Shown here: positions 34,375 through 51,098 of the stretch, one piece after another
How positions within the stretch are numbered: the stretch's first letter is position 1
Layout: each line of letters starts with the position of its first letter
DNA from: Rhizobium sp. NXC14
GTDB lineage: Bacteria > Pseudomonadota > Alphaproteobacteria > Rhizobiales > Rhizobiaceae
Assembly (NCBI RefSeq): GCF_002117485.1
Contig: NZ_CP021031.1
Location: forward strand, 62,001 to 126,000
Reading direction: 5' to 3'
Length of the DNA: 64,000 nucleotides
Notes under the pieces: generated by a model
Database searches by the model: none
Told to the model about the DNA's origin: nothing
What the model saw: only the letters and a program-made list of their open reading frames with translations
Program-made: the position numbers and the translations under genes

Positions 34375-34785
34375 GTGCAGGTCTCACCGTTCAGGCGTGG
34401 CAAAAGTTTAACCTGCATCTACACGGATGAGCGTCCAGATCTGTGCCGCGAGTTGCCGAATTGGATGTTCGATCAAAGCTATTGCACTACCATGGCGCTA
34501 GGGCTGCCTGAGATCAGCATTGCCGGTCTCAACGAATTGGCAGCGGCGCTGGCATCGTTCGGCGCGACTCACGCAAGAGGAGCAAAATCCCGTCCTTCGA
34601 GGAAGAAGGAGAAGGATGATGCGAAGCAGGCGACATCAAAATCGCGACCAACTCGTTCTGCAGTTGGGGCGCCAAAATCTTCAGGTTCCGGCGGTCAAGA
34701 ACGTCAAAGGGTTGGTGGAAGCGCTGGCGGATCTTCTGCTGGAAGCTTTGGACGCGAACAGAATGACGAAGACGGGAGGCGTTGA
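34375..34785 (+). CDS. Accessory protein of the serine-recombinase element
   Basis: The frame from GTG at 34375 gives 136 residues. The frame is open further upstream and includes YPWHPLFGKKVQV, which belongs to the conserved N-terminus of such proteins, so the real start may be earlier. Conserved-looking parts are RGKSLTCIYTDERPDLCREL and PNWMFDQSYCTTMALGLPEI; the C-terminus is basic and low complexity. Proteins like this precede large serine recombinases in many bacterial elements; the exact role is unknown. It overlaps the recombinase start by four bases. Confidence 0.6.
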   Translation: MQVSPFRRGKSLTCIYTDERPDLCRELPNWMFDQSYCTTMALGLPEISIAGLNELAAALASFGATHARGAKSRPSRKKEKDDAKQATSKSRPTRSAVGAPKSSGSGGQERQRVGGSAGGSSAGSFGREQNDEDGRR

Positions 34786-36874
34786 TGAACACGAAGATCA
34801 CGCCTGACCATCTTGGCCGCGCCGCTGTGGTCTATGTCCGCCAGTCCACAATGACTCAGGTCACCGGCAATCTGGAAAGTCAGCGCCGGCAGTATGATCT
34901 GGCTGGAGCTGCCGCAACGACCGGCTTTGCATCGGTGACCGTAATCGATGACGATCTCGGCCGCTCCGGCTCAGGCAGCATGGAACGGCCTGGATTCGAA
35001 CGGCTTGTGGCACAGGTCTGCTCCGGCGATGTGGGAGCGGTCTATTGCATCGAGGCATCCCGCCTGGCGCGCAATGGCAGGGACTGGCATCATCTGATCG
35101 ACCTTTGCGCACTTGCCGGTACGCTGGTCATCGATCCGGATGGTGCCTATGACCCGCGGCTCGTCAACGATCGTCTGCTGCTTGGATTGAAAGGCACGAT
35201 GTCGGAGTATGAGCTTAGCTTGATGCGTCAGCGCGGCATCGCAGCACGCGATTCCAAGGCAGGACGCGGGGAACTGCGGTTCATGTTGCCGCCGGGCTTG
35301 TGCTGGAGCGAAGTGGGCAAGATCGAGATCGACCCGGACGAACATGTGGCTGAGACGATCAGGCTGGTCTTTGCCAAATTCCGGGAGCTGGGAAGTGGAC
35401 GACAGGTCTTTTTGTGGCTGCGGTCGGCCGATATCAAGATGCCGGTCGTTCTGCGCAATGTCGAGGTCTGCAAGCTCGTCTGGAAAGCGCCGGCGTACCA
35501 CAGCGTCATGCAGATCCTCCACAACCCACTCTATGCGGGCGCCTACGCCTTCGGAAGACGCGCACAGCGAACGCGGATCATCGATGGTCCGCTCGCAAGG
35601 CCACTGGGGTGCGCAAACCCCGGGATGAATGGAGCGTGTTGCTGCGCGACAATCATCAAGGTTACATCAGTTGGCGGGAATACGAGGAGAACCACAAGCT
35701 ACTGGCCGAGAACGCGCACATGAAGAAGAACTGCGATCGCAAGTCAGCGCGTGGCGGTCGTGCCCTTTTGACCGGGCTGATGCGATGCGGTCGCTGTGGC
35801 CGAATGATGCGCGTCTTCTACGGCAGCGCGAAGGGCAACGCGCATCGCTATCAGTGCCGCGGCGACGATGCACACGTGGGTGTCGGCCTTTGTATCGGCA
35901 TTGGCGGCGTCAGGGTCGATCGCCCCGTTGCGGTCCAGATTCTGGAAGCGGTGTCTGATCGTGCCGTCGAAGCGGCAATCTTCGCCTCGGATCAAGTCGA
36001 GCGGTCCCGAAGAGATGTCATTGCGGCACTCGATCGGGACCTCGAAGGCTCACGCTACGAAGCGCTGTTGGCCAGTCGCAGGTATGAGCTTGTGGACCCG
36101 GCCAAGCGGCATGTTGCACGCGAACTGGAGGCCCGATGGAATGATGCCCTGGAGCGAGTGGGCGTGCTTGAGCGCAAGATCAAGGACCTGTCCGCGCTGT
36201 CAGCAGCGCGCCCCGTCATCGATCGTGGCCGACTCCTGCAGCTTGCCCAGGATCTCCCGACCGTCTGGAATGCGCCCTCCACTGAGACGAGAACAAAGCA
36301 GCGGCTCATTCACATCCTGGTTCAGGAGATTATTTGCGATCTCGACGATGCGACCAACGAGGCGGTGCTGTTGATCCATTGGACCGGAGGTCGGCACACA
36401 GAGGTGCGTGTGGCGCGAGTCGAGACCGGAAGATATCCTGCTGAGCTCGCACCATCGGCCGTCGAAGCACTGCGCAAACTGGGCGGACATTGGCCAGATC
36501 GGGAACTCGCGGTCTCCCTCAATCGGATGCTTTGCAAGACAGGTGATGGCGAGAGCTGGACGGCCGTGCGTGTTCGTGACATGCGCGAGCGTCTGGGAAT
36601 TCCCGAATATGATGCCACCAAAGTGGAGATACCGATGATCAGCTTGATGAAAGCGGCGGAGAAACTCGGTATTTGCGTGGGATCGGCCAAAAGCCTGGTG
36701 CAGAGAGGAGTTCTTCCTGCAACGCAAATCCTTCCCGGCTCGCCGTGGATGGTTCCGGTAGATGCGTTAACCTCGGAAGCCGTCCGGATAGGGGTGCAGG
36801 GTGTCGTCGATCGACGCCCCAAGTTTTATGAAGATTATCAATACGATAAAGTCGTCCGGTTGCCCGGAATTTGA
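34782..36874 (+). pseudogene. Large serine recombinase, frameshifted
   Basis: The N-terminal resolvase domain has AVVYVRQSTMTQV (nucleophile serine) and IDDDLGRSGSGSMERPGFER. The recombinase domain follows (LHNPLYAGAYAFGRRAQRTR). At about 35595 the frame changes; the rest, from GVRKPRDEWSVLLRDNHQGY through a zinc ribbon (LMRCGRCGRMMRVFY) and a coiled coil to VVRLPGI at 36874, lies in the next frame. One base would restore a protein of about 695 residues. As read it would yield a catalytic domain without the DNA-binding part. Confidence 0.82.
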
Positions 36875-37050: not shown

Positions 37051-37458
37051 TCATCGCAGCCCCAGCACGCAATCGAGAATCCGGCCAAGGGCATCCGTAT
37101 CGATGTCGCTATCCACGCGCACGCGCCGACCCCGTCCAAGCTCGATTGTCACATCGCTACGCTTCCGACGAGGGTGGGATGTGGTGGGCGATTCCGGTTG
37201 AACGGGAGAGACTGTCGAAGCGGCCTCGGATACGATCACCGGCACCAAAGTCGCCGTATCAGACCTTGGCTCCTCGATCCGGCAAAGCTCTTTGCGCCAA
37301 CGGAACAACTGGCTGACATGGATGCCGGCCGCGCGGGCAATCTCGGAGATGACCGCGTCTGGCTCAAAGCACGCAGCGACAAGGCGCTCTTTATCTTCGC
37401 GTGACCAGCGCCGACGGCGCTCTACAGACGTGATCACCTCAATTGGATGCTTCGTCAT
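37051..37458 (-). CDS. tnpA: IS66 TnpA
   Basis: A 135-residue TnpA with a helix-turn-helix (RRWSREDKERLVAACFEPDA, IARAAGIHVSQLFRWRKEL) and the usual basic tail (VTIELGRGRRVRVDSDID, LGRILDCVLGLR). The stop overlaps the tnpB start. Intact. Confidence 0.9.
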   Translation of the reverse strand: MTKHPIEVITSVERRRRWSREDKERLVAACFEPDAVISEIARAAGIHVSQLFRWRKELCRIEEPRSDTATLVPVIVSEAASTVSPVQPESPTTSHPRRKRSDVTIELGRGRRVRVDSDIDTDALGRILDCVLGLR

Positions 37459-37532: not shown

Positions 37533-38984
37533 TTACTGCATCGAGGTGTAAGTTCCAACACCATTGCCTCCTATCGCGACACTTTCAGGCTGCTGTTTGC
37601 GTTCGCACAGACGCGCCTTGCGAGATCCCCGTCTCAGTTGAATCTGCGGGATATGGACGCTCCGTTCATCGGCGCATTCCTGCTCTGGAAGTAACCCACG
37701 CGGACTGAATCGCAGCACGAGCAATAGCATCAACCCGACCATTGGGAGTCGCATCTGGACGGCCGTATCGATGAGATGGGCTTTGAGTGGCCCTTCGGCG
37801 AGTGGAGCAGTGAAAAGCTGAAAAAGCGCAGGACCAAGGTTCTCGGCTTGTCCCCATATCAGCATGACGATCAAAGCGCCGAGCACGGCCCCCCAATTGT
37901 TGCCAGAGCCGCCGAGAATAACCATGGCCCAAATGAGGAATGTATAACGGAGGGGGTCGTCATAGCTCACCGGCGAGAATAGGCCATGCAGTGTCACATA
38001 GAGCGCGCCCGCAATACCGATGACCGCGGAACCAAGAATAAAGACCTGGAGATGGCGCTGTTTGACGTTCTTTCCCATCGCCTCTGCCGCCGTTTCGTTG
38101 TCCCGGATCGCGCGCATCATTCGCCCCCAGGGCGATTTCAAAGAGCACTCCGCGAGAAGCACGAGGACGAGAAGGACCACGGCAAGCAAAGATGCGAAGC
38201 ACAATGCGACGAAGATAGTGGAAGCCGTACGGACGTCGGTCCCGACGTAATTCGCAGCTCCGCCAAACCAGTCCTGCTGCTGAAGGTTAGCCTCCTGTGG
38301 TACCGGCCAACGATCGATGCTCGTGATGTTCTTGACGCCTCGATCGAGCCACTCCTCGTTCTTGAGAACGATGATAATGATCTGACTGATGCCAAGCGTA
38401 GCAATGGCAAGGTAATCGGATCGCAGGCCGAGCGCTGTCTTGGCGACTACCCAGGCGGCGCCAGCCGCAAAGATACCGCCAAGGAGCCAGGATAGTGGCA
38501 CCGGCAGTCCGAGCCCGCCGACATTGCCGGCCGACGCCGGATTCAGCGCTTCGACAGCAACGACCGCCGGATCAAAGACGATTCGGAAGCCAATGAGGCC
38601 CGCGATAAGCAGCACGGCGGCTAAGGTAAGACGCGTGATTTCGGGTGCCTTGGAACGATAGACGCGGGCAGTCAGAAATATGATAAGCGCGCCGAACGCG
38701 AGCGCCGCGAGTATCATCGGGGTTCCGGCAGACCAAGCCTCGGGGTTGAGTGGCATCGCGACGAGCGCGACCGCAAGGCCGCCAAAGGCGAAGAAGCCGG
38801 CCACGCCGACGTTGAAGAGACCGGCATAGCCCCATTGAATGTTTACCCCGAGTGCTGCAATGGCCACAATCAGGCCATCGCAAAGCAAGGTAAGCGCCAG
38901 CGTCCAGGATTGCGTGAGGCCGACGAGAAGATAGGCTAGCAGGACGGCAGTATAGAGGATCAATGGGCGTTTTACTTGTCTCAT
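37533..38984 (-). CDS. livM: Branched-chain amino acid ABC transporter permease LivM, altered C-terminus
   Basis: The ATG at 38984 (MRQVKRPLILYTAVLLAYLL) overlaps the livH stop. The protein has about ten helices and the LivM marks LTLLCDGLIVAIAALGVNIQ, WGYAGLFNVGVAGFFAFGG and RSDYLAIATLGISQIIIIVL, with an EAA-like loop RAIRDNETAAEAMGKNV. The family end LRFSPRGLLPE is reached at about 37695. The following 50 or so residues are antisense recombinase sequence read through to 37533. A few native residues may be lost, but the membrane domain is complete. It is the last gene of the importer operon. Confidence 0.88.
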   Translation of the reverse strand: MRQVKRPLILYTAVLLAYLLVGLTQSWTLALTLLCDGLIVAIAALGVNIQWGYAGLFNVGVAGFFAFGGLAVALVAMPLNPEAWSAGTPMILAALAFGALIIFLTARVYRSKAPEITRLTLAAVLLIAGLIGFRIVFDPAVVAVEALNPASAGNVGGLGLPVPLSWLLGGIFAAGAAWVVAKTALGLRSDYLAIATLGISQIIIIVLKNEEWLDRGVKNITSIDRWPVPQEANLQQQDWFGGAANYVGTDVRTASTIFVALCFASLLAVVLLVLVLLAECSLKSPWGRMMRAIRDNETAAEAMGKNVKQRHLQVFILGSAVIGIAGALYVTLHGLFSPVSYDDPLRYTFLIWAMVILGGSGNNWGAVLGALIVMLIWGQAENLGPALFQLFTAPLAEGPLKAHLIDTAVQMRLPMVGLMLLLVLRFSPRGLLPEQECADERSVHIPQIQLRRGSRKARLCERKQQPESVAIGGNGVGTYTSMQ

Positions 38985-39991
38985 ATGGAGGCACCCCGAA
39001 ATAGTCCGGTCGGCTTGATCAGCAGAACGGCAACGAGAATTGCAAATGACACAGCGAATTTGTAATCGGTCGACAGGAGCTGCCCGAGGCCGTCCGGAAC
39101 GAAGTTTGCCGGAAGAAGGTAAGCCAGAACCTTTTTCCACGCATAGGTAAACGTGACCTCGGAAAAGGCTATGAAGAACCCGCCCGCGACGGCTCCAACG
39201 GGGTTGCCTAGCCCACCCACCACCGCCGATGCGAAAATTGGCAACAGGAGCTGGAAGTAGGTGAACGGCTTGAAGCTTTTGTCCAGGCCATAGAGCACAC
39301 CGGCAATGGTTGCCAGGGAGGCGGCGATCAGCCAAGTGATCTTGACCACTCGGTCAGGATTAATCCCAGAGAGCAGGGCGAGATCTTCGTTATCGGAGAA
39401 GGCGCGGAGCGACTTGCCTGTGCGTGTTCGGTTAAGAAACCGAAAGAGTGCGAGCACCACGATAGCCGCTGTCACAAGCGTGATGACCGTGCTCGTCCGC
39501 ACCGCCAGACCTTCTTCCAAGCCGGTCATTGCGCGAAACTGGATCGCGGAAATGACAAAGCGGACGCCATCGGCGAAATTCTGCTCCTGGACGCCGATGG
39601 CCACCCTGGTCAGGCCGTTCATGATGAACATCACGCCCATAGAAACAATAACCAAGGTAACGGGTGCGACTTTTCGCCTTCTGTAGTAGCGGTAAACGGA
39701 ACGGTCCGTGAAAAGGACGATCGCCGCCGAGGCTATGAGGCCGAGCGGCAAGGCGAGAAGCGCAGTCGGCAAAGGCCCAAAATTCACGCCATGCGACTGA
39801 AGAAACCATGTCCCCAGGATCGTAATTGCTGTCCCGAACGCCATGGTGTCGCCGTGGGCGAAGTTGGAGAAACGCAAAATTCCATAGACAAGCGTCACGC
39901 CGAGGGCACCCAGGGCAAGTTGCGCACCATAGGAAGCTGCTGGAACGACGACATAGTTCAGGAGCGCGACGATAGCATTGAGGATGTCCAT
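38981..39991 (-). CDS. livH: Branched-chain amino acid ABC transporter permease LivH
   Basis: A 336-residue permease: QLALGALGVTLVYGILRFSN and FAHGDTMAFGTAITILGTWF near the N-terminus and an EAA-type loop RTRTGKSLRAFSDNEDLALL, followed by GINPDRVVKITWLIAASLAT and FASAVVGGLGNPVGAVAGGF. It forms the heterodimeric channel with LivM in the inner membrane. The gene starts 3 bases after the livF stop and overlaps livM by four bases. Confidence 0.92.
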   Translation of the reverse strand: MDILNAIVALLNYVVVPAASYGAQLALGALGVTLVYGILRFSNFAHGDTMAFGTAITILGTWFLQSHGVNFGPLPTALLALPLGLIASAAIVLFTDRSVYRYYRRRKVAPVTLVIVSMGVMFIMNGLTRVAIGVQEQNFADGVRFVISAIQFRAMTGLEEGLAVRTSTVITLVTAAIVVLALFRFLNRTRTGKSLRAFSDNEDLALLSGINPDRVVKITWLIAASLATIAGVLYGLDKSFKPFTYFQLLLPIFASAVVGGLGNPVGAVAGGFFIAFSEVTFTYAWKKVLAYLLPANFVPDGLGQLLSTDYKFAVSFAILVAVLLIKPTGLFRGASI

Positions 39992-39994
39992 GTA

Positions 39995-40699
39995 TCAGCC
40001 CCCGAGGAAGGTTTTTCGAACGACGGGATCGGCCATGAGGGCTTCGCCCGTATCGGCGTGACGGTTGGCCCCTTGTACGAGCACGTAGCCTTTGTCGGCG
40101 ATGTTCAATGCTTGCTGCGCGTTCTGCTCCACCATCAGGATGGAAACCCCCGTTCGGGAGATTTCAATGATCCGGTCGAAAAGCTCGTCCATGACGATGG
40201 GAGACACACCGGCCGTCGGTTCGTCGAGCATCAGAATATTCGGCTTGGTCATCAGGGCCCGACCGACCGCTACTTGCTGTCGCTGCCCGCCGGACAGTTC
40301 TCCGGCGCTCTGCCGGCGCTTTTCCCGCAGGATCGGGAAGAGTGCATAAATCTGCTCCATCGTGTCGCGGATGTCGTCGTTACGCAGAAAGGCTCCCATC
40401 TCCAGGTTCTCTTCAACCGACAGCGACGGAAAGATGTTGTGGGTCTGCGGCACGAACGCCATGCCTTTTGCCACGCGACCCTGGGGCGAGAGGTGGGTGA
40501 TGTCCTCGCCGTCCAACTTTACGCTTCCGCCTCGCAGCGGCAGCATGCCGAAGACTGCTTTCATCGCGGTCGACTTGCCGGCTCCGTTAGGGCCGACAAT
40601 CACTGCGATTTCGCCGCGCTCGACAGCAATCGTGCAGCCGTGGAGGATGTCCACCGGCCCATAACCGCCGGTCATGGTCTCGCCGATTAGAAATGCCAT
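39995..40699 (-). CDS. livF: ABC transporter ATPase LivF
   Basis: A 234-residue ATPase with Walker A (VGPNGAGKSTAMKAVFG), signature (GELSGGQRQQVAVGRAL), Walker B (NILMLDEPTAGVSP) and H-loop region (SILMVEQNAQQALNIADKGY). The VEQN and ADKGYVL residues are typical of LivF. It pairs with LivG on the cytoplasmic face. Order livK-G-F-H-M is conserved in one direction. Confidence 0.93.
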   Translation of the reverse strand: MAFLIGETMTGGYGPVDILHGCTIAVERGEIAVIVGPNGAGKSTAMKAVFGMLPLRGGSVKLDGEDITHLSPQGRVAKGMAFVPQTHNIFPSLSVEENLEMGAFLRNDDIRDTMEQIYALFPILREKRRQSAGELSGGQRQQVAVGRALMTKPNILMLDEPTAGVSPIVMDELFDRIIEISRTGVSILMVEQNAQQALNIADKGYVLVQGANRHADTGEALMADPVVRKTFLGG

Positions 40700-40732
40700 G
40701 GACCGACCTTTTGATCGACGACCCCATTGAAA

Positions 40733-41515
40733 TCAGGCATGGGCTTTGTCCTTGTTTTTCAAGCCGCGCCCCAGATAGGCTTCAATCACCGCTTCGTTTT
40801 CCATGATGTGGGCCGCCGGCCCCTCAGCAAGCACGGCCCCTTCGGCCATAACAATCACCGGATCGCAAAGCCGCCCGATGAAATCCATGTCGTGCTCGAT
40901 CACGCAGAAGGTGTAGCCACGCTCTCTATTGAGGCGGACGATAGCGTCGCCGATCGTGTTGAGGAGCGTACGATTAACGCCAGCGCCGACTTCGTCGAGG
41001 AAGACAATTTTTGCGTCGACCATCATCGTCCGGCCCAACTCCAGCAGCTTCTTCTGACCACCGGAGATCTGGCTCGCCTTCTGGTCGGCAAGGTGGGAGA
41101 TCGTCAGGAATTCGAGAACTTCGTCCGCCTTTTTTGACAACGTCTTTTCTTCGGAGGCGATGGCTTTGCGGCGGAACCATGTGTTGTAAATACCTTCACC
41201 GGCTTGTCCCGAAGGCACCATCATCAGGTTCTCACGAACTGTCATGGAGCCGAACTCATGGGCGATCTGGAACGTCCGCAACATCCCTTTGTGAAAAAGC
41301 TCATGTGGGCTGAGACCGGTAATGTCCTCACCGTTCATAAGAACACGCCCGGACGTTGGCGGCATTCGCCCGGCAATCACGTTGAAGAGCGTGCTCTTGC
41401 CCGCGCCATTGGGACCAATGAGACCAGTAATCGACCCCTTTCTGACCCTCAGTGAGGTGCTATTAACGGCGCAAAACCCGCCGAAGTGCTTGCTCAGGTT
41501 TTCGACGACGATCAT
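40733..41515 (-). CDS. livG: ABC transporter ATPase LivG
   Basis: A 260-residue ATPase starting MIVVENLSKHFGGFCAVN, with Walker A (IGPNGAGKSTLFNVIAG), LivG-type FQIAHEFGSMTVRENLMM, signature (SQISGGQKKLLELGRTMM), Walker B (IVFLDEVGAGVNRTL, with Val where most have Pro) and the H-loop in CVIEHDMDFIGRLCDPVIVM. The start at 41515 has GAGGGCAAG before it; an open frame runs to 41602. An intercistronic hairpin lies upstream. Confidence 0.92.
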   Translation of the reverse strand: MIVVENLSKHFGGFCAVNSTSLRVRKGSITGLIGPNGAGKSTLFNVIAGRMPPTSGRVLMNGEDITGLSPHELFHKGMLRTFQIAHEFGSMTVRENLMMVPSGQAGEGIYNTWFRRKAIASEEKTLSKKADEVLEFLTISHLADQKASQISGGQKKLLELGRTMMVDAKIVFLDEVGAGVNRTLLNTIGDAIVRLNRERGYTFCVIEHDMDFIGRLCDPVIVMAEGAVLAEGPAAHIMENEAVIEAYLGRGLKNKDKAHA

Positions 41516-41570
41516 CTTGCCCTCACGTCGTTTGCGTTGCGGACCGCGCAGGCGGCAGTGAATAGGCAAG

Positions 41571-41601
41571 GCGGGCTTCCGACATAATCGGGAGCCCGCC
41601 A
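41571..41601 (-). promoter_or_regulatory. Intercistronic stem-loop after the binding-protein gene
   Basis: Arms of 13 bases with one mismatch (GGCGGGCTTCCGA and TCGGGAGCCCGCC) and a 5-base loop, 10 bases after the stop of the binding-protein gene and before livG. It probably stabilises the upstream message or terminates partly, as in the other importer operon here. Confidence 0.6.
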
Positions 41602-41610
41602 CGCCCGTTC

Positions 41611-42795
41611 TTATTCGAAGACGTCTGTGACCTGCTTCCCATCCTTGATCGTGTAGATGCGATAGCTGCCCGCCGCCTCGCCGGGGCCGATCAGGTGAAC
41701 GCCGGTGACACCCTCGTAGTCGATGCTTTTTCCTTCCGAGAGAAGTTTCAGGCCCTTCGCCAACTGGCCAGCATAGATTTTTTCGCCAGGACCGTTTGCG
41801 ATCTCCATGACCTTCTTCTTGATATCCGCTCCTGACGTTGATTTTGCCGCCTGCATGGCAAGCGCCACCAATGCCGCAGCGTCATAGGATTCGCCGGTAT
41901 AAGATGACGTCCCGTCAAAGCCTGCTGCCGTGGCCAGCTTCAGGAAGTTGGCGTGACCTTCGCTTTCGTTGCCGGGCACGTCGCCGAAGCTGCCAGCGAG
42001 CGGCTCGCCGATCCCCTTGATCAAGCTGTCGCCATACATCCCGTCCGGCAGATAGAACTTGGAGAAGGCGCCGCTGTCGAGTGCTGCCTGAATAACACCC
42101 TTTCCGCCCTGGTCGACGTAACCGGCGACGACGAGAAGATCTCCGCCGGCCGAGGCAAGCGCACCGATCTCCGCCGAATAATCGGCCTTTCCGTCCTCAT
42201 GCGGTGCGGAAATGGTGATTGTGCCGCCCTGCCTCACAAATGCTTCCTTGAAAGAGTCCGCAAGACCCTTGCCGTAATCGTTATTCGTGTACGTCAGCGC
42301 GACCTTCTTTATATCGCGCTTCAGAATGGTTGTGGCCATGATCTCGCCCTGGCGGGCATCGGAAGGCGCAGTGCGGAAGAAGAGGTCATCGTCACTCACA
42401 GTGCTCAGTGCTGGCGAAGTGGCAGACGGCGATATCATGACAATTCCGTTCGGCTTCGCGACCGATTGAAGAACCGCACCGGTCACGCCCGAGCAGTCTG
42501 CGCCAACGATGGCGGCGACCTTTTCCGATGTCACCAGGCGTTGCGCTGCTGCAGTTGCTGCCGCGGCGTCCGTGCAGGTGGAATCCCCACGAATGGCTTG
42601 AAGTTCGCTGCCCTTGAAGAAGGCCTTCGAATTGTTGACTTCTGTGATTGCCAGTTCAGCCGATTTTGCCTGTAGGGGAGCGATCGACTCCAGCGGTCCG
42701 GTAAAGCCTAAGAGGAGGCCAATCTTCACGGTTTCGGCCGAAGCCGTGCTGGCCATCAACGCCAGGCCGGCTGCAGCGCAAATAATGGATTTCAT
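41611..42795 (-). CDS. Amino acid-binding periplasmic protein (LivJ/LivK-like)
   Basis: A 394-residue type I periplasmic binding protein. The signal peptide is MKSIICAAAGLALMASTASA, cut before ETVKIG. Then KIGLLLGFTGPLESIAPLQ, AAIVGADCSGVTGAVLQSVA, VMISPSATSPALSTVSDDDL and VALTYTNNDYGKGLADSFKE, the usual order of the Peripla_BP_6 fold. The ATG at 42795 has GGGAGAT eight bases upstream. It leads the importer operon and sets the substrate. The neighbouring catabolic genes suggest an acidic or 4-substituted amino acid rather than leucine. Confidence 0.92.
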   Translation of the reverse strand: MKSIICAAAGLALMASTASAETVKIGLLLGFTGPLESIAPLQAKSAELAITEVNNSKAFFKGSELQAIRGDSTCTDAAAATAAAQRLVTSEKVAAIVGADCSGVTGAVLQSVAKPNGIVMISPSATSPALSTVSDDDLFFRTAPSDARQGEIMATTILKRDIKKVALTYTNNDYGKGLADSFKEAFVRQGGTITISAPHEDGKADYSAEIGALASAGGDLLVVAGYVDQGGKGVIQAALDSGAFSKFYLPDGMYGDSLIKGIGEPLAGSFGDVPGNESEGHANFLKLATAAGFDGTSSYTGESYDAAALVALAMQAAKSTSGADIKKKVMEIANGPGEKIYAGQLAKGLKLLSEGKSIDYEGVTGVHLIGPGEAAGSYRIYTIKDGKQVTDVFE

Positions 42796-43296
42796 GCGTA
42801 TCTCCCTGTGTGCTGGTGAGGTTCGAGAAGGCGAATGCGAGGTCACGCACAGACGATGTTTGGCGGTCGGTGCGGATAGGTGTTTCAGTTTACGAACTGG
42901 AGACCGCTTGAAGCTACGGACACGAGTTCTGGCAGCGTTCGGTGTCGCCAAGACGCCCAATCGCCCGCACATCGCGCAGCGGAAAAAGTAAGCCTCTGTT
43001 GAGCCTCATTATTTGTTCCCTTGTCGTTATTTTTCAGCAAACTTACTCACTGCTAATGACATGTAAATTTCTACCAACTTATCTCTGTGATAGGAAAAGC
43101 GGAACACAGGGGTGTTGGCGCAGTGTTACCGCCACTTGGGCTGGGCATCACAAAGAGCTTTGGTGATTACCGAGTACAGGCCAACATTGAAGGATTTGAA
43201 CCAGAAGCGTCAACGAAGAACCTGATTAGCAATGTTTGGTATTGGTAGCTCCGTGATATAGAATGTGGAATAGGCATCGATTTGGGGAGCTAAAAT
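42796..43296. promoter_or_regulatory. Divergent intergenic region of importer operon and lysR
   Basis: 500 bases without a supported gene. It should hold the promoter of the importer operon (leftward) and of lysR (rightward). An AT-rich stretch at 43020-43090 contains TTAC and GTAA half sites 16 bases apart (43043-43066), a possible LysR-type or other operator; this is a weak call. Confidence 0.45.
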
Positions 43297-44217
43297 TTGA
43301 GCGTCGTCGATTTCCGGCTTGTTCGTCAACTTTGGATGTTTCTCGCGGTAGCCGAGGAAGAACACTTTGGTCGCGCAGCGAGCCGACTCGGGATGTCCCA
43401 GCCACCGCTCACCGAGCAAATCAAGGTTTTGGAGCAATCACTCAAGCTGCAACTCTTCGATCGCTCGCGGCGTGGCACCAAGCTCAGCGCAGCTGGTGCT
43501 GCAATCCTTCCCGCTGTCCGAAGGTTTGCAGGCCAGGTTGAACAGCTGGAAACGGTTATCAAAGAGGTCGCCGCAGGCCAGTCCGGGGTGCTGCACGTCG
43601 GAGCCATCACGTCTGCGATGCTTGACACAGTTCCGCCACTGCTCGATGAGCTTAGATCAACCCACCCGAACCTTACGGTTTTCGTGAAGGAGATCGATAG
43701 CGTCGAAGCGATCCCCGGCCTGGAAGCCGGAGAGCTTGATCTTGCCTTCGTTAGGCTCGAAGGAGAATTGGGCAGCGGAATTGCCACCATGCCGCTGACC
43801 GAGGATCGTCTTGCCGTTGCACTGCCGAAGGAACATCCTCTGGCAAGTTTGCCGAGGGTCCGCTTGAAATCGCTGGAAGCCGAGCAGCTGGTCATGTCCT
43901 CTCGCCAAGTGAGCCCGGTCTATTTCGATATGTTGGTTTCGGTCTGCCGTTCGCACGGTTTCGCACCTCGCGTTTTGCACGAAGTGCGGTCGGTAGCGTC
44001 GCAGATTGCCTATGTCAGCTGCGGCCAGGGCCTGGCTCTTGTGCCATCTTCCATGCGTAAACTTGCGCCGGATAACGTTGTGGTCCGGCCGCTCAAGGAA
44101 AGAGTAATGGTCGTCACCGCAGCGCTGGCGTGGAACAAGAACCGCTTTCATCCCATGGTCGACGTGGTCGTGTCGCAATTGAAATCTCGCGTCCAGAGGC
44201 GAGCAAAAGGCGCATGA
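43297..44217 (+). CDS. LysR-family transcriptional regulator
   Basis: A 306-residue regulator. The N-terminal winged helix-turn-helix is RLVRQLWMFLAVAEEEHFGR with AASRLGMSQPPLTEQIKVLE, and the effector domain starts about residue 90 (GVLHVGAITSAMLDTVPPLL). TTG at 43297 is the likely start, seven bases after GGGGAG. The gene lies between the divergent importer operon and the convergent catabolic operon, so it probably controls one or both, with a pathway intermediate as inducer. The SQPPLTEQI box places it near the CatR/BenM-like branch. Confidence 0.9.
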   Translation: MSVVDFRLVRQLWMFLAVAEEEHFGRAASRLGMSQPPLTEQIKVLEQSLKLQLFDRSRRGTKLSAAGAAILPAVRRFAGQVEQLETVIKEVAAGQSGVLHVGAITSAMLDTVPPLLDELRSTHPNLTVFVKEIDSVEAIPGLEAGELDLAFVRLEGELGSGIATMPLTEDRLAVALPKEHPLASLPRVRLKSLEAEQLVMSSRQVSPVYFDMLVSVCRSHGFAPRVLHEVRSVASQIAYVSCGQGLALVPSSMRKLAPDNVVVRPLKERVMVVTAALAWNKNRFHPMVDVVVSQLKSRVQRRAKGA

Positions 44218-44260
44218 ATGAATATGTTCATCCACGCCGCAGGTGGATCTGGACGATCGA

Positions 44261-45064
44261 CTATGCCGCTGCGATGAAGTCGGCGATCTCACGCCACATG
44301 GCGGGAGGATTTGAATACATCGGGAAATGTCCACAGTGGGGAATCTCCGCCAGTCGGACCCCATATGAGCGAAGCGCCGGCAGATAGGAGAGGGTGGCAT
44401 ACTGCTCTCCAAACATAAACATCTTGGGGCTGGGCAAATTGAGGAATTTCGGCAGCGGATCCCAATTGTCCGAGAAATCTACCATGGATTCGAAGATCGG
44501 GCGTACGGCCTTCACGCGCACCTTAGAGCGAAGGGAGGCCGCATAAAGGGCGCTTGAAAATGTCGGCGAGCCATGAATTCGCCCTACGAAATCGTTTAGG
44601 AATCGCTCATTGTCGGCGTCGGGATAATCGAGGATCTGCCTGGAAAGAAAACAATCCTCCGGTGCGAGATTACCCTTGATGTTAACGAAGCTGACAACCC
44701 GGTCCGGGTTCTGGTGAGCGAGCACCAAGGCGGCCAGCCCCCCCATGGAATGACCGACGAGATGAAACCGATCAAAGCCGGCGGCGTCAGCAACGCGAAG
44801 CGCAATCTCCGCCAGGAACGAAACGGAAATTTTCGACAGGTCGGAACAGTGCGTTTCGCCGCAGCCCGGCGCGTCGAATGCGAGGAAAGGATGTCCGTCG
44901 AAGGCGCCTTGGCGGACGAAATCAGCGTAGTCTTCCTTCGTGGATCCGAAACCGTGGAGAAACAGGAAGGGCTCTCTTTCTCCATCGCGATATATGGCCG
45001 AAACCGTCAGATCAGCGCCGACATGACTCTGATGAAACGTGGTTTTGTGAAATGGCTCATTCAT
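44261..45064 (-). CDS. Alpha/beta hydrolase
   Basis: A 267-residue alpha/beta hydrolase with oxyanion strand FLFLHGFGSTKEDY, nucleophile elbow HLVGHSMGGLAALVL, a likely acid aspartate in the second half and the catalytic histidine in EIPHCGHFPMYSNP. The ATG at 45064 (MNEPFHKTTF) has GAGGGA about nine bases upstream; 45091 is an alternative. It is the last gene of the catabolic operon, 53 bases after the dehydrogenase gene. It may hydrolyse an ester, lactone or amide form of the substrate; the reaction is not known. Confidence 0.85.
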   Translation of the reverse strand: MNEPFHKTTFHQSHVGADLTVSAIYRDGEREPFLFLHGFGSTKEDYADFVRQGAFDGHPFLAFDAPGCGETHCSDLSKISVSFLAEIALRVADAAGFDRFHLVGHSMGGLAALVLAHQNPDRVVSFVNIKGNLAPEDCFLSRQILDYPDADNERFLNDFVGRIHGSPTFSSALYAASLRSKVRVKAVRPIFESMVDFSDNWDPLPKFLNLPSPKMFMFGEQYATLSYLPALRSYGVRLAEIPHCGHFPMYSNPPAMWREIADFIAAA

Positions 45065-45117
45065 CGGTGCAAATCCCTCATTTGTCGGCATGTGGTCACT
45101 AGCGCGCGTGAATAGTT

Positions 45118-46407
45118 TTATGGATACAAGCCGCGCTGCTCGCGCGCGGAGAGAACACGTTGGCACGCGATGATGAAAGCGGCTGTGCGTAGCGAGACTT
45201 TGCGTTCGTCAGCAACAGACCAGATGGAATCGAAGGCGCCAACCATGATACTCTCCAGTCGGGCGTTTATTTCATCTTCGGTCCAGAAAAAGGACGAGAA
45301 GTCTTGCACCCACTCAAAGTAGGAGACGGTCACTCCGCCGGCATTGGCCAAAACATCTGGCACGACGAGAATACCCCGCTCGTTGAGGACATCATCCGCG
45401 GCCGGTGTCGTCGGTCCGTTAGCACCTTCCACGACAATCTTCGTTTTCAGACGCTTAGCCCGTTCGGGAAGAAGCTGGCCTTCCAGCGCTGCCGGCACGA
45501 GAAACTCGGTGGGCACGAGCCAGAAGTTCTCAGTCGGGGCTTCCGCATGAGGCAGAAAGCCTGACAGTTGTCCCGTACGGGCCACGTGTTGGCTTGCCGC
45601 CATGACATTGATTCCGGCTTCGTCTACCAGGGTCGCAGAGTGGTCTTGCAGAGCAACTATCCTTGCTCCGGAACCCTCGAACAGGCGTGCCGCTGTACCC
45701 CCGACATTGCCAAAACCCTGAACTGCGACGCGCGCTCTTTCAACGGGGACGCCGCGCCGACGGCCGGCTTGCTGAGCTGCGATGAAGACACCTCGAGCCG
45801 TAGCCTCGTGGCGTCCGAGGGAACCGCCGAGTGCTACCGGCTTGCCGGTCACCACGCCGGTGGCAGTGCTCCCGTTATTCATAGAATAGGTGTCCATCAT
45901 CCACGCCATCGTCTGCTCGTTCGTGCCGACGTCTGGCGCCGGTATGTCGCGGGCAGGGCCGATAAATCCGCCGAGTTCGGATGTGTAACGACGGGTTATG
46001 CGCTGGAGCTCACCTTCGGAGTGTTGGCGCGGGTCGAGGCGTATACCTCCTTTGGCGCCGCCAAAGGGCAGATTGAGGGCGGCGTTCTTGATCGTCATCC
46101 AGCCGGCAAGGGCCATGACCTCGTTGAGCGTGACAGACGGATGGAAGCGGACGCCGCCCTTGCCGGGCCCCCGTGACAAGGTATGCTGGACGCGATAGCC
46201 TTCATAATGGACGATGGTCCCGTCGTCGCGGATAATCGGCACATCAACGATAATCATGCGCTTGGGCCGCTTCAAGGTCTCCGTCCAGCGCGACAACGAT
46301 CCAAGGTGGGGGGTAACGCAGTCGATCTGCTCAAGAAAACTTGCCCAGGGCTCAGGGGAGGCCGGATCCAGGTAGGACAATCCCTCGCGGGTTCGGTTGT
46401 TGCTCAT
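45118..46407 (-). CDS. Glu/Leu/Phe/Val family dehydrogenase (glutamate dehydrogenase-like)
   Basis: A 429-residue dehydrogenase. The catalytic lysine region is [14 protein letters not shown], the substrate loop [18 protein letters not shown] and the Rossmann motif [34 protein letters not shown] and [17 protein letters not shown] are family hallmarks. It interconverts glutamate and 2-oxoglutarate with NAD(P). In this operon it would regenerate 2-oxoglutarate as the acceptor for the transaminase next door, releasing ammonium. The gene starts 11 bases after the aminotransferase stop. Confidence 0.9.
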
Positions 46408-46418
46408 CCGTGCCTCTC

Positions 46419-47633
46419 TCAGTCCGTCAAGGCGTCCACAAAGTGCCGAATCCCATCACATGCTATTCGAAGCGTGTCGGTGTCCAAGGCGTAGGCAAAT
46501 CGGATATAGGGACCTAACCCAAAGGCGCTTCCGTGGACGACCGCGACGTTGCATTCTTCCAGCAGCGCGATCGCGACGTCCTCGTCTGTCTCCAGACGCG
46601 TGCCTGCCGGGGTTGTCTGTCCGAGAAGGCCCTTACAAGAGGCAAATGCATAGAAAGCCCCGCCAGGCGTTACGCAACGTATGCCGGGAGTCTCGTTTAG
46701 CATCCGAACCGCCAGGTCGCGGCGTTGCTGGAAAACACCGCGCGCCATTTCGATGAACGTCTGCGGCCCCGTCAGGGCCGCCAATGCCGCATGTTGGGCT
46801 ATTGAACATGCCCCGGACGTCTGCTGCCCCTGGAGTTTCTCCATAGCGTCGAGCAGCCAGCGCGGGCCGGTACCGAAACCGATGCGCCAGCCGGTCATGG
46901 CATAGGCCTTCGAAACACCGTTCATCGTCAGTGTCCGCGACGCAAGCCTCGGTTCGACCTGTGCCAAGGTATGAAATGTCGCGCCGTCGAAGATCAGGTG
47001 CTCGTAAATATCGTCGGAAAGGACGAGAACATGCGGGTGCGCCAGCAAGACCTCCGCGAGCTCAGCTAACTCGTCTCGGCTGTAGACGGCGCCTGTCGGG
47101 TTCGATGGTGAGTTGAGGATAAGCCAGCGGGTTTTCGAAGAGATGGCTGCTTCCAGAGCTGCCGGAGTCAGCTTGAACCCAGTATGTTCGCCGCAGGAGA
47201 CGATGGTCGGCACAGCACCGCAGAGCGACACGATTTCTGGGTAGCTCACCCAGTAGGGCGCCGGCACGATAACTTCGTCACCTTCATTCAATGTCGCCGC
47301 CAAGGCATTGAAGATGACCTGCTTGCCGCCACTGCAGACGATCGTGTCCTGCCAGGAGACGTCCAGTCCGTTCTCATTGCGGAACTTGGCCGCTACCGCC
47401 TCGCGCAGGGGACGGAGGCCCGCGACTTGGGTGTAGCGCGTGTGACCCGCGCGGATTGCCGATATGGCGGCATCACAGATATGAGCCGGTGTGTCGAAAT
47501 CTGGCTCGCCGGCGCTCAGTGAAATAATCTTCGCGCCTGTTTCGCGGCGCGCCGCAACCCGATCGATCATCCGGTAAGTCGCGGACGGTTTGGCCGTGGC
47601 AAGGTGCCGATTGAGCATAGCAGCCTCGCTCAT
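46419..47633 (-). CDS. PLP-dependent aminotransferase, class I (aspartate aminotransferase-like)
   Basis: A 404-residue fold-type I enzyme. [20 protein letters not shown] and [19 protein letters not shown] mark the AspC subgroup I-gamma; [16 protein letters not shown] and the PLP lysine in [20 protein letters not shown] are present, as is the terminal arginine region IRFAYALD. It transfers the amino group of an amino acid to 2-oxoglutarate or oxaloacetate. Its start overlaps the stop of the upstream RraA-like gene by four bases. In context it probably converts the imported amino acid to the 2-oxo acid cut by the RraA-like enzymes. Confidence 0.9.
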
Positions 47634-48280
47634 GCTTTGTCTCTCCAGGCGCCAAGCCCCATCAACTCAAGTGTCGTCTCACCTGCGGCGAGCCTTTCCA
47701 TCATGCTGCGCTCTTTGGCCGCGCGCGCTTCGCCATTTGAAAGCGTCCGCTCGACTTCGCTCCTGGGCAGAATGAGAACGCCGTCATCGTCAGCGACCAG
47801 GAAATCCCCAGCTGCCGCGGGCACGCCGCCGAACAGCAGTGGCGCGCCAACTGAGGGGACACTTGCCTTGATGGTGCCACGCATGGAGATGCCGCGCGAG
47901 AAGACAGGGAAACGACGCGCCGCAAGTGCGGCCACGTCCCGCACGCCCCCGTCGATAACAAGTCCCGCAATGCCGGCCGCTTCGGCCGCAACGGTTAGAA
48001 CCTCGCCCCAGTAGCCCGCAATATAATCGCCGGTGGCGACCACCAAAACGCTCCCCCGTGTGGCACGCTCCATGGCAATATGAATGGCGAGATTGTCGCC
48101 AGGTGCGCAGGCCAAAGGGTAAATGGGTGCGGCGACTGCAGCGCCGTTCCATACGGGACGTATTTCCGGATCGACAGAGCAGGGGAGACCAGATGCTTCG
48201 AAAAGCGTCGAGCTGCCTAAAGCGAGCGCCCGCGACGACGCATCAGCGGGCAGGTCCATCATAGGAGAAACGACGGTCAT
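47630..48280 (-). CDS. RraA-like aldolase/decarboxylase, paralogue 1
   Basis: A 216-residue member of the RraA / 4-hydroxy-4-methyl-2-oxoglutarate aldolase family. It keeps the family metal and substrate motif E-x20-R-D (WGE, then 20 residues, then RD in DGGVRDVAAL). A glycine loop precedes it (VVATGDYIAGYWGEVL). Enzymes of this kind need Mg or Mn, form a ring-shaped trimer or hexamer, cleave 4-hydroxy-2-oxo diacids to pyruvate plus an oxo acid and often decarboxylate oxaloacetate. It is the most divergent of three tandem copies and the only one with Glu instead of Asp at the first motif position. Overlaps both neighbours by four bases. Confidence 0.85.
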   Translation of the reverse strand: MTVVSPMMDLPADASSRALALGSSTLFEASGLPCSVDPEIRPVWNGAAVAAPIYPLACAPGDNLAIHIAMERATRGSVLVVATGDYIAGYWGEVLTVAAEAAGIAGLVIDGGVRDVAALAARRFPVFSRGISMRGTIKASVPSVGAPLLFGGVPAAAGDFLVADDDGVLILPRSEVERTLSNGEARAAKERSMMERLAAGETTLELMGLGAWRDKA

Positions 48281-48942
48281 GACGGCTTCCTCTGGAGGAG
48301 GTGGTAGCCCAAAGTTTCCCGTGCCTGCTTCAGCGTTTGGCCGTCTGCAATGGCTTCACGGATTTTCGACTCGACACTCTCGATCTGACGAGCAATCTCG
48401 GCAACTTCCCGGGCCCGGCCGCGGGGCACGACAACGACACCGTTTGCATCGGCGACAACAATATCGCGCGGCACGACCCGGGCTTGGCCGATGGAGACCA
48501 CTTCGTTGACCGAGCCGACCTCGACCCGGTCCTTGCCTGTGCGCATAAAGCGTCCACGGGTGAAAAGAGGATAATTGTCGCCGAGCGCCTTAGAGACATC
48601 ACGGCAGACTCCGTCGATCACGGTTGCAGCGAAGCGCCGCACGCCGGCATATTGGGTCATGATGTCGCCCCAGACAGTGCAGTCGGTGCGGCCGCCATTG
48701 TCGATAACGACCACGTCGCCGTCTGCGACGTCATCAGCGAAATCGCCGACCGTGCCGGGTGGACTGGCCGCGGGAACATACTTTACTGTAAAGGCCGGTC
48801 CGACCACGGTCCCGCTATAGTTGGCGAGCGGCATGACATCGAAGCAGCGTCCGCCGAGACCCAGCTTATCGAGCGCGTCGGAGACGCCGGGGGTATCGAG
48901 CCCAGCGAAAAGCTCGACCAGTTCGCGATCGTCCTTCGTCAT
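48277..48942 (-). CDS. RraA-like aldolase/decarboxylase, paralogue 2
   Basis: A 221-residue protein with VSDALDKLGLGGRCFDVMPL at the N-terminus and the D-x20-R-D motif (VWGD, 20 residues, then CRDVSKAL), so the metal and pyruvate-binding residues are in place. It has RDIVVADANGVVVVPRGRAR, the typical C-terminal strand of the family. True RraA RNase E inhibitors lack the full motif, so enzymatic function is expected. Start and stop each overlap the neighbouring gene (ATGA). Confidence 0.85.
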   Translation of the reverse strand: MTKDDRELVELFAGLDTPGVSDALDKLGLGGRCFDVMPLANYSGTVVGPAFTVKYVPAASPPGTVGDFADDVADGDVVVIDNGGRTDCTVWGDIMTQYAGVRRFAATVIDGVCRDVSKALGDNYPLFTRGRFMRTGKDRVEVGSVNEVVSIGQARVVPRDIVVADANGVVVVPRGRAREVAEIARQIESVESKIREAIADGQTLKQARETLGYHLLQRKPS

Positions 48943-49607
48943 TGCGATTGCTCCTGTCTGATCGCTTCGAATTCCTTGTCGTGCATCACCTCTTCGACCG
49001 ATCGGCCGGACCTGACGGCAGCAACCATCCCGTCCTGACGGCGCGCAATCCGCTCACCGAGATCGAGCACCTCCTCGATGCGGGCTGCCGGTACGAACAC
49101 CGTGCCGCATCGGTCGGCAATGACGTAGTCGTTCTCGTGAACCAGGACCCCCGCAATTCTGACAGCCTCGCCTGAGCTGAGTTGAATCAGGCGGTTACGC
49201 GCGCTGACCATTGTCACGCCGCGACCATAGACCGGATAATCGATTGCCTCGCTGCCTTCGATATCGCGGCTGAACCCATCAATGACGGAGCCACGCAGGC
49301 CGCGCGTCTTGGCGGCATTCGCGAGAATATCGCCCCAGCAGGAAATGCCGTCGATGCCGCCTGCAATGACGAGAACCCGGTCGTCGCTGTTGACGCGCGC
49401 AATCACCGGGGAAATCAGGTGAACGGTCGGCGCCGTATCGCTTTTCGGCCCGAGTTGGATGGTGCTTGCGCGCCCAACGATCTTCGGGCAAGCCCAGAGG
49501 GGACGAAGCCCCACCGTCGCACCGGCGAGATCGAGAAAATCAAGGGCGTCCGAGACTGTATTGGTGTCAAGTCCTGCAAGACGATCGAGAAAGGAGAGAT
49601 GTGTCAT
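48939..49607 (-). CDS. RraA-like aldolase/decarboxylase, paralogue 3 (first gene of operon)
   Basis: A 222-residue paralogue, first in the catabolic operon. TVSDALDFLDLAGATVGLRP opens the protein, and the motif D-x20-R-D is present (CWGD, 20 residues, SRDIEGSEAI). Its closest resemblance in the window is paralogue 2. Three tandem copies may form a hetero-oligomer or serve three related substrates. The upstream 236 bases should contain the operon promoter. Confidence 0.85.
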   Translation of the reverse strand: MTHLSFLDRLAGLDTNTVSDALDFLDLAGATVGLRPLWACPKIVGRASTIQLGPKSDTAPTVHLISPVIARVNSDDRVLVIAGGIDGISCWGDILANAAKTRGLRGSVIDGFSRDIEGSEAIDYPVYGRGVTMVSARNRLIQLSSGEAVRIAGVLVHENDYVIADRCGTVFVPAARIEEVLDLGERIARRQDGMVAAVRSGRSVEEVMHDKEFEAIRQEQSQ

Positions 49608-50135: not shown

Positions 50136-50369
50136 GGGCGCGCTGCTACCTCAATTTCCTTACCGCTCAATCAATGTGACAGTACCGGCCGCGGCGATAC
50201 TTCAGGATTGGCTTAGCTCCTTCCATGCGTCAAAACTCCACTTGATGAGTGCCATATCAAGGCATAACCCAATCGGCCATTCTCCGATTGCCGGAGAATC
50301 GCCGGACATGACTCGGAGCAGGTGCCATTTCTCCGCAGCCATCCCGGATATTGCAAAAGGATTGATATC

Positions 50370-51098
50370 ATGTGCTTTGAATGCAATTCCTCCTCTCTCA
50401 GCCGTCGCTCCCTGCTGAAATTTGCCGGCATCGGAGGCGTGGCCGCCATGACTGCAGGCTTTGGCATGACCATGCCGGCATTCGCCTCGAACGCCCCCGC
50501 CCTCCTGCCGGATGAAGCACTGGCAAAACTCCAAGAAGGGAACAAGAAATTCGTCGCCGACGCGGAAGCCTGCGTCCCCAATATTTCCAAGCGCCGGCGG
50601 GACGTCGCCAAGAGCCAGGCACCCTGGGCGATCGTGCTCACCTGTTCCGACAGCCGTGTCGTGCCGGAACTTGTATTCGGCGGCGTGACGCTCGGGGAAC
50701 TCTTCGTTGCCCGCAATGCCGGAAACGTGGTCGACACCGATGTGCTCGGCACGATCGAATATGGCACCGAACATCTGCATGCGCCGCTGATCGTCGTCAT
50801 GGGCCACAAGCGTTGCGGGGCGGTCTCCGCCGCCTGCGAGGTCGTGTCCAAGGGCACCAAGCTCGCAGGCTCAATCGGCAAGATGACCCAGCCGATCCTG
50901 CCCGTGGCTTTGGCGGAGACCGATCGCGGCGACAGTTTTGTCGACAAGACCGTCCATGCCAATGCCTTCAACGGCGCCGAGCGCATCCTCACCGAAAGCG
51001 CGATCGTTTCTCGCCTGGTCGAGGAAGGCAAGGTGAAGATCGTGCCCGCCTATTATGATCTCGATACCGGCGTGGTCGATTTCCTGCACAAGGTCTAA
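50370..51098 (+). CDS. Beta-class carbonic anhydrase with Tat signal
   Basis: A 242-residue protein. The N-terminus has a twin-arginine motif (SRRSLLKFAGIGGVAAM) ending at about PAFAS. The enzyme domain shows the zinc cysteine and aspartate in LTCSDSRVVPEL and the second pair in MGHKRCGAVSAA. Beta carbonic anhydrases interconvert CO2 and bicarbonate; a Tat signal places this one in the periplasm. The ATG at 50370 follows AGGA by eight bases; an open frame starts at 50322. It stands alone between debris. Confidence 0.92.
   Translation: MCFECNSSSLSRRSLLKFAGIGGVAAMTAGFGMTMPAFASNAPALLPDEALAKLQEGNKKFVADAEACVPNISKRRRDVAKSQAPWAIVLTCSDSRVVPELVFGGVTLGELFVARNAGNVVDTDVLGTIEYGTEHLHAPLIVVMGHKRCGAVSAACEVVSKGTKLAGSIGKMTQPILPVALAETDRGDSFVDKTVHANAFNGAERILTESAIVSRLVEEGKVKIVPAYYDLDTGVVDFLHKV

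Follow-up and report, generated by a model that had tools for sequence, protein, structure and literature searches.

A cluster of twelve genes (positions 37533-49607) lies within a stretch of 64,000 nucleotides (positions 62,001 to 126,000) of the Rhizobium sp. NXC14 contig NZ_CP021031.1, which in its whole length is referred to here as the window. From gene content, conservation, active-site residues and linkage, all observed directly, we infer its reactions and its substrate: the cluster probably leads from an acidic amino acid through the corresponding 2-oxo acid to pyruvate, and there is roughly an even chance that the amino acid it imports and catabolises is a C4-branched glutamate (4-hydroxy-4-methyl-, 4-methyl- or 4-methyleneglutamate), the most likely class of substrate, with the methyl-type character of the C4 branch held at the same middling confidence. 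All three compounds occur in legumes and ferns. The enzyme families are known ones in a combination without description in the literature searched, and among the matches listed in the open-licence literature there was no paper on the bacterial catabolism of any of the three.

Relatives of the cluster were gathered by a search with RraA2, one of its three RraA-fold proteins, which returned 310 relatives; the best 80 were kept, giving 79 distinct genome loci, 65 of them with at least 4 kb on both sides, and seven plasmid loci chosen by hand from sequence matches brought the set to 86. The counts given below describe RraA2-bearing loci, and related genomes among them are not independent. Searches with the window proteins (tblastn) found RraA1 in 70 of the 79 loci, the LysR-type regulator gene (lysR) in 65, the aminotransferase in 64, the alpha/beta hydrolase in 46 and RraA3 in 45. 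Clustering of open reading frames (ORFs) across the 86 loci gave 68 for lysR, 67 each for RraA1 and the aminotransferase, 49 for the hydrolase and 42 for RraA3, using ORF calls from codon-position GC that miss genes (RraA2 was called in 70/86 loci, although the loci had been fetched by RraA2). These five genes and RraA2 form a core that extends across Pseudomonas, Burkholderia, Cupriavidus and others. On plasmid pRetNXC12d of R. etli NXC12, the twelve proteins recur in the same order at 95-100% identity, and this, together with the recurrence of the core in Alpha-, Beta- and Gammaproteobacteria, argues that the cluster is not a chance assemblage.

Three RraA-fold proteins and their partner enzymes

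Three genes on the minus strand encode RraA1 (48939..49607), RraA2 (48277..48942) and RraA3 (47630..48280), which score 100.4, 113.6 and 121.6 bits against PF03737 (RraA-like; cut-off 24.5 bits). Because they are mutually only 23-30% identical, we regard them as old paralogues and not as products of a local triplication; the strain's own genome holds six RraA-fold genes, three of them in the cluster. The best point of comparison is the 4-hydroxy-4-methyl-2-oxoglutarate/4-carboxy-4-hydroxy-2-oxoadipate (HMG/CHA) aldolase of Pseudomonas putida F1 (PDB 3noj), in which, according to the part of PMC5065237 drawn on here, Arg123 stabilises the enolate, Asp124 and Glu199 are acidic metal-binding residues, and Arg40, Asn71, Thr145, Lys147 and Arg195 form contacts with phosphate docked close to the site of the general acid. 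RraA3 shares the fold and has N71, R123, D124, T145, K147, R195 and E199 of that enzyme, including four of the five phosphate contacts. RraA2 keeps Asp102, Arg123, Asp124 and Glu199, RraA1 keeps Asp102, Arg123 and Asp124, and neither has any of the five contacts. As judged by alignment, RraA3 alone retains the larger part of the pocket of the known aldolase; the first-pass annotation, which had treated the three as equivalent aldolases, is not supported in this respect. The genomic setting also differs, as the known enzyme ends gallate/protocatechuate cleavage, whereas the RraA genes here neighbour those of an aminotransferase and an importer of amino acids. In five annotated plasmid records with the operon and the aminotransferase, annotation of the RraA members goes no further than "RraA family protein" or "dimethylmenaquinone methyltransferase".

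The different pockets of RraA1 and RraA2 leave a tangible chance, somewhat short of even and compatible with the proposal above, that these two together make up a heteromeric hydratase or isomerase, or a regulatory pair, with RraA3 as the sole aldolase. In 65/68 RraA1 members, and in the window protein, Gln replaces the metal ligand Glu199; N71, T145, K147 and R195 are not retained in either protein; and both co-occur in loci without RraA3. Distant RraA1-RraA2 pairs in Aminobacter and on a peanut Bradyrhizobium plasmid (L093 7333-9313 and L094 7364-8666), where the surrounding clusters look aromatic-catabolic, have an RraA1 that has lost Asp102. A non-aldolase role is harder to reconcile with the invariance of Arg123 and Asp124, present in 68/68 RraA1, 74/74 RraA2 and 43/43 RraA3 aligned and in the three window proteins, and with the retention in the RraA2 family of Asp102 (72/74) and Glu199 (74/74), while an obligate pair is made less plausible by the six loci in which other genes separate the two (L013, L019, L028, L029, L033, L058). 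A fourth RraA type (RraA4) occurs in Pseudomonas in a neighbouring unit composed of a LysR gene, RraA4, an MFS carrier and an RraA2 copy (L029 6774-10660, L018 6754-10660), and the RraA2 of the RraA4-bearing unit is a second copy in L023, L031 and L051.

The aminotransferase (46419..47633, minus strand; PF00155) is a class I, aspartate-aminotransferase-like enzyme. Its closest solved chain is the aspartate aminotransferase A of PDB 6f77, which we take to be of S. meliloti origin (477.5 bits over residues 7-400), and it stays below the cut-off of the PRK06107 equivalog (515.7 of 617), which sets it apart from the described aspartate aminotransferases. The motifs PSAT (66/67 family members) and GGKQ (62/67) are conserved as in aspartate aminotransferases, and their residues would play the same roles. 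Directly before PSAT, 55/67 operon aminotransferases have Gln or Arg, and that of the window has Lys. The adjacent gene (45118..46407, minus strand) encodes a Glu/Leu/Phe/Val dehydrogenase family protein (PF00208, PF02812), a probable glutamate dehydrogenase (GDH) whose best equivalog score is under the cut-off (454.8 of 620).

The importer resembles the Liv system for branched-chain amino acids in consisting of a periplasmic binding protein, two ATPases and two permeases. It differs in that the window binding protein (121.7 of 477), LivG (194.3 of 362) and LivF (205.8 of 441) all miss the curated Liv cut-offs of NCBIfam, so that the ligand need not be leucine, isoleucine or valine.

Linked genes in relatives and the proposed pathway

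Some relatives have amino acid transport genes beside the operon. In L084 and L048 the gene directly after the aminotransferase encodes a binding protein with the Glu/Asp-binding PRK10797 as its best NCBIfam model, at 245.5 of 375 and thus below the cut-off; the best PDB match of this protein is 2ia4/2vha, presumably a Glu/Asp-binding protein. AGCS carriers, with the AGCS model over its cut-off, occur in the Pseudomonas loci L067, L068 and L089, and in L026, L034, L037 and L088 the hydrolase gene is followed by an amino acid permease of the APC family and a binding protein of the Liv type.

Among the enzymes, the recurrent neighbours are a two-subunit thiamine pyrophosphate (TPP) decarboxylase (TPPa/TPPb), aldehyde dehydrogenases, a CoA-transferase III, an acyl-CoA dehydrogenase and the families c20 and c33, here called ich and ccl. 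By sequence comparison, ich of L029 matches the itaconyl-CoA hydratase of PDB 8khg with 426 bits over residues 7-277 of 285, and ccl of L018 matches the acyl-CoA lyase 8khl with 382 bits, although ccl stays below the cut-off of the RipC_Ccl model for (S)-citramalyl-CoA lyase (150.7 and 165.8 of 375). In P. fluorescens PS862 (L068), a single strand carries rraA1-rraA2-rraA3, the aminotransferase, TPPa, TPPb, acyl-CoA dehydrogenase, CoA-transferase, etfB, etfA, ich, ccl and an aldehyde dehydrogenase that is cut by the locus end and has succinate-semialdehyde dehydrogenase as its best model. In this locus TPPa and TPPb were identified by clustering and the first electron-transfer-flavoprotein-like protein by likeness to the tested L018 protein, none of the three reaching the 1e-40 limit of the family search. 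TPPa/TPPb resembles sulfopyruvate decarboxylase, a function that was considered and set aside: two tested members do not reach the curated cut-offs (103.2 of 147.95 and 148.2 of 221.5) and TPPa travels with ich, which makes another 2-oxo acid more likely. The labels TctC-like, MHS, pxpC and accC given to neighbours are our own reading or come from annotated plasmid records and not from family searches; 5-oxoprolinase (pxp) genes lie near the operon in some loci and were not used as evidence.

The linkage exceeds the background. Genomes were requested for 30 of the 79 loci, and with that of L020 missing, 29 relative genomes (195 Mb) with 18 TPPa and 38 ich matches served to estimate background density, which predicts 0.14 TPPa and 0.29 ich matches for the 79 loci, against 14 and 8 seen (Poisson; relatives not independent). 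All 16 TPPa genomes of the 29 have ich, within 12 kb in 11, at about 22 kb in one and on different contigs in four. Among 199 genomes of one Pseudomonas genus, that of P. khorasanensis SWRI153, TPPa was found in 11, RraA1 (E 1e-60) in 21 and ich in 72; RraA1 occurs in 10 of the 11 TPPa genomes (Fisher 1.7e-10) and ich in all 11. After removal of five genomes first reached via RraA2 loci, six of seven TPPa genomes have RraA1 (Fisher 7.8e-7). TPPa and RraA1 lie at most 10 kb apart in seven of the ten genomes with both and on another contig in three.

The itaconate/methylsuccinate cluster of Pseudomonas and Cupriavidus treated in PMC12290011 provides a close parallel, as the RraA-aminotransferase operon of relatives is linked to homologues of its ich, acyl-CoA lyase, CoA-transferase III and acyl-CoA dehydrogenase. 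According to the part of that source used here, the cluster acyl-CoA dehydrogenase converts methylsuccinyl-C4-CoA to mesaconyl-C4-CoA, itaconyl-CoA hydratase doubles as mesaconyl-C4-CoA hydratase, and citramalyl-CoA lyase yields acetyl-CoA and pyruvate; the acyl-CoA dehydrogenase of relatives, a homologue, may be the same enzyme. The two systems differ in that the words "aminotransferase" and "thiamine" are absent from the main text of PMC12290011 and that the window genome has no ich match.

We propose that the Liv-type ABC system would take up the amino acid, that the aspartate-aminotransferase-like enzyme would transfer its amino group to 2-oxoglutarate, giving a C6 2-oxo diacid from a C4-methyl-type glutamate, and that GDH would regenerate 2-oxoglutarate with release of ammonium. 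RraA3, perhaps with RraA1/RraA2, would then cleave a 4-hydroxy-4-methyl-2-oxoglutarate-type acid to pyruvate; where C4 is hydroxylated, the 2-oxo acid would be 4-hydroxy-4-methyl-2-oxoglutarate (HMG) itself, the known RraA-fold aldolase substrate, and would give two pyruvate. The LysR-type regulator may sense the substrate or its 2-oxo acid. In relatives a second exit may run through the TPP decarboxylase, a semialdehyde dehydrogenase, the CoA-transferase, methylsuccinyl-CoA dehydrogenase, itaconyl-CoA/mesaconyl-CoA hydratase and citramalyl-CoA lyase: decarboxylation and oxidation would produce a branched C5 diacid, methylsuccinate from the 4-methyl and itaconate from the 4-methylene compound, and the route would end in acetyl-CoA and pyruvate. 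Since no ich was found in the window's genome, the RraA exit is the only one predicted for it, and the substrate is then more likely to be 4-hydroxylated, unless a hydration step has gone unrecognised.

The Glu/Asp-type binding protein, the TPP decarboxylase and the itaconate/methylsuccinate genes of relatives favour C4-substituted glutamates independently of the window, and the substrate class that the first-pass annotation had named gains support from this context, short of proof. Its wider path of amino acid import, transamination and RraA cleavage to pyruvate likewise agrees with the context, while the exact amino acid is still a matter of deduction. 3-Methylglutamate would also yield methylsuccinate by decarboxylation and oxidation, but it offers no obvious RraA substrate. 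If the proposal is right, a gene set carried by about one-tenth of the species sampled in one Pseudomonas genus (21/199) gains a function, and growth on 4-methyl-, 4-methylene- or 4-hydroxy-4-methylglutamate is predicted. Its fullest form we put forward as a speculation that is somewhat unlikely as a whole: the cluster would be a rhizobial version of a so far undescribed route by which bacteria break down C4-branched glutamates, in which RraA1 and RraA2 form a heteromer with one subunit devoid of the metal ligand, RraA3 cleaves HMG, and pseudomonads make methylsuccinate and itaconate and so act as a source of soil methylsuccinate.

Several observations weigh against a C4-branched glutamate as the substrate of the whole cluster. 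RraA3, 38% identical to the HMG/CHA aldolase, has Leu for Arg40 and Glu for Asp102, and all three RraA proteins are below the NCBIfam aldolase cut-offs, the best being RraA3 with 168.6 of 179 (NF006731) and 156.1 of 304.5 (TIGR02798). The LivM end is altered in the window, and among the rhizobial loci examined the complete Liv set occurs only in the window and NXC12. TPPa is missing from 11 of the 21 RraA1-bearing Pseudomonas genomes; the ich-family matches of Burkholderiales share just 42-49% identity with the Pseudomonas query, and a second homologue in C. necator stands in another context (PMC12290011, in the part used here). An ich match was absent from the strain's own genome at E 1e-5, an empty search that alone shows little, so that the strongest context evidence comes from relatives. 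The top matches of the RraA2 search, L007 and L008, have neither aminotransferase nor GDH in the operon; in the Cupriavidus loci L010, L057 and L092, the genes for RraA1-3 come after that of a TctC-like binding protein and the aminotransferase is absent; and L040 and L080 have a fold-type dehydratase in the aminotransferase position, that of L040 being nearest to threo-3-hydroxyaspartate ammonia-lyase (274 of 452, below the cut-off) and best matched in the PDB by a probable serine racemase. L010 and L092 also carry a cis-3-hydroxy-L-proline-dehydratase-like protein, which in L092 scores 312 of 700.

The dehydratase loci, the TctC-like loci, the aminotransferase-less L007 and L008 and the distant Burkholderiales ich indicate that the entry step combined with the RraA set varies, and two other substrates stay live rivals. 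Aspartate or 3-hydroxyaspartate could be converted to oxaloacetate by the aminotransferase or by a hydroxyaspartate-lyase-like enzyme such as that suggested for L040, with the RraA proteins decarboxylating oxaloacetate to pyruvate, an activity described for the RraA-fold HMG/CHA aldolase in the part of PMC5065237 used here. The closeness of the aminotransferase to aspartate aminotransferases suits this scheme, but three diverged RraA proteins would be unnecessary for it, and we consider it improbable. 4-Hydroxyglutamate, whose 2-oxo acid, 4-hydroxy-2-oxoglutarate, would be split to pyruvate and glyoxylate, fits an aminotransferase with an RraA aldolase and the acidic amino acid transporters of some relatives, yet it leaves their C5-branched dicarboxylate genes unexplained and is judged quite improbable.

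Rhizobial carriers, the importer and the dehydrogenase

The core is sparse in rhizobia. Of 297 sampled Rhizobiaceae genomes, one, the window's own, gave a close RraA1 (E 1e-50); further rhizobial carriers are R. etli NXC12 and Mim1, Rhizobium sp. CC1099 and S. meliloti 4H41, and in rhizobia the cluster looks like a rare, horizontally acquired element. A legume-specific system is ruled out by this distribution of the core, which is found mainly in genera like Pseudomonas, Burkholderia and Cupriavidus. The legume framing of the first-pass annotation thus falls, whereas its description of the island as symbiotic is reasonable, given that the window replicon carries two nifH matches over cut-off, in a genome of 6.69 Mb. 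Among the loci examined, the close Liv importer and GDH were confined to rhizobia.

GDH and the importer had also been counted among the core parts, which was not borne out: neither GDH nor any Liv subunit was found in the 79 genome loci at the tblastn identity thresholds used. They may be unrelated plasmid neighbours, with the importer carrying ordinary branched-chain amino acids, a reading that we regard as unlikely. In line with it, Mim1 has no Liv match within the 20.7 kb examined, CC1099 has a 112-residue binding-protein remnant only, and the window LivM has lost its native end. Against it, GDH directly follows the aminotransferase in NXC12, CC1099 and Mim1, the only loci examined in which it was found; L065 has a distant Liv set (27-40% identity); another Liv-type binding protein accompanies the APC permease after the hydrolase gene in the four loci named above; and lysR and the gene of the binding protein are divergently oriented.

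The rhizobial clusters for degradation of mimosine and canavanine are similar in that they serve legume non-protein amino acids; they differ in that the Pfam-identified genes of the present cluster include no ring-cleaving dioxygenase and include RraA proteins instead. Canavanine or mimosine degradation was considered as a function and set aside; among the literature matches listed there was nothing tying canavanine to RraA. On two rhizobial plasmids (L086 1107-5772, L087 19927-24610) a cluster of RuBisCO-like, four-carbon acid sugar kinase and 2-keto-3-deoxygluconate permease genes lies near the RraA operon, on opposite sides of it in the two.

Gene boundaries, replicon and mobile elements

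All twelve genes are present as open frames at the positions originally assigned, and the gene order and the four-base overlaps described for them are confirmed. The overlaps number four: RraA1/RraA2 (48939-48942), RraA2/RraA3 (48277-48280), RraA3/aminotransferase (47630-47633) and LivH/LivM (38981-38984), the last counted using the LivM ATG at 38984. Pfam was run on ten of the twelve proteins, with matches to RraA-like (three), Aminotran_1_2, ELFV dehydrogenase, alpha/beta hydrolase, LysR, Peripla_BP_6 and BPD_transp_2 (two); NCBIfam was run on the ten non-permease proteins, both ATPases among them. Starts inside the longest ORFs were taken from annotated R. etli NXC12 homologues for LivM (38984), LivG (41515), the binding protein (42795) and the hydrolase (45064).

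The importer genes lie on the minus strand and comprise the LivM-type (37533..38984; PF02653) and LivH-type (38981..39991; PF02653) ABC permeases, the LivF-type ATPase (39995..40699; best NCBIfam models UrtE and LivF, below cut-off), the LivG-type ATPase (40733..41515; best models LivG and UrtD, below cut-off) and the amino-acid-type periplasmic binding protein (41611..42795; Peripla_BP_6). The LysR-type regulator gene (43297..44217, plus strand), identified by Pfam, is convergent with the alpha/beta hydrolase gene (44261..45064, minus strand; Pfam) and related to the regulator that is divergent from rraA1 in most other loci; in rhizobial loci it lies beyond the hydrolase gene.

In comparison with NXC12, the last residue and stop of LivM are swapped for foreign sequence at 37682/37683, so that the native 3' end is replaced from 37682 downward and the frame continues for 48 codons as a C-terminal extension. 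Over 145 bases, this new end shows 90-95% identity to sequence carried by plasmids of Sinorhizobium, Rhizobium and others, and in many of the matching plasmids the similar sequence is annotated as a tyrosine recombinase. The replacement lies at a mobile-element junction. IS66-family transposase genes lie at 32446-34062 and 60448-61740 of the window, and between them are a resolvase-domain recombinase gene and a small HTH_Tnp_1 transposase gene (34782-35723 and 37051-37458). A large protein with RHS repeats and a match to the TcdB middle/N-terminal domain is encoded at 700-3765. On the other side of the cluster, a carbonic anhydrase gene (50322-51098) adjoins rraA1, an adjacency that is the same in NXC12.

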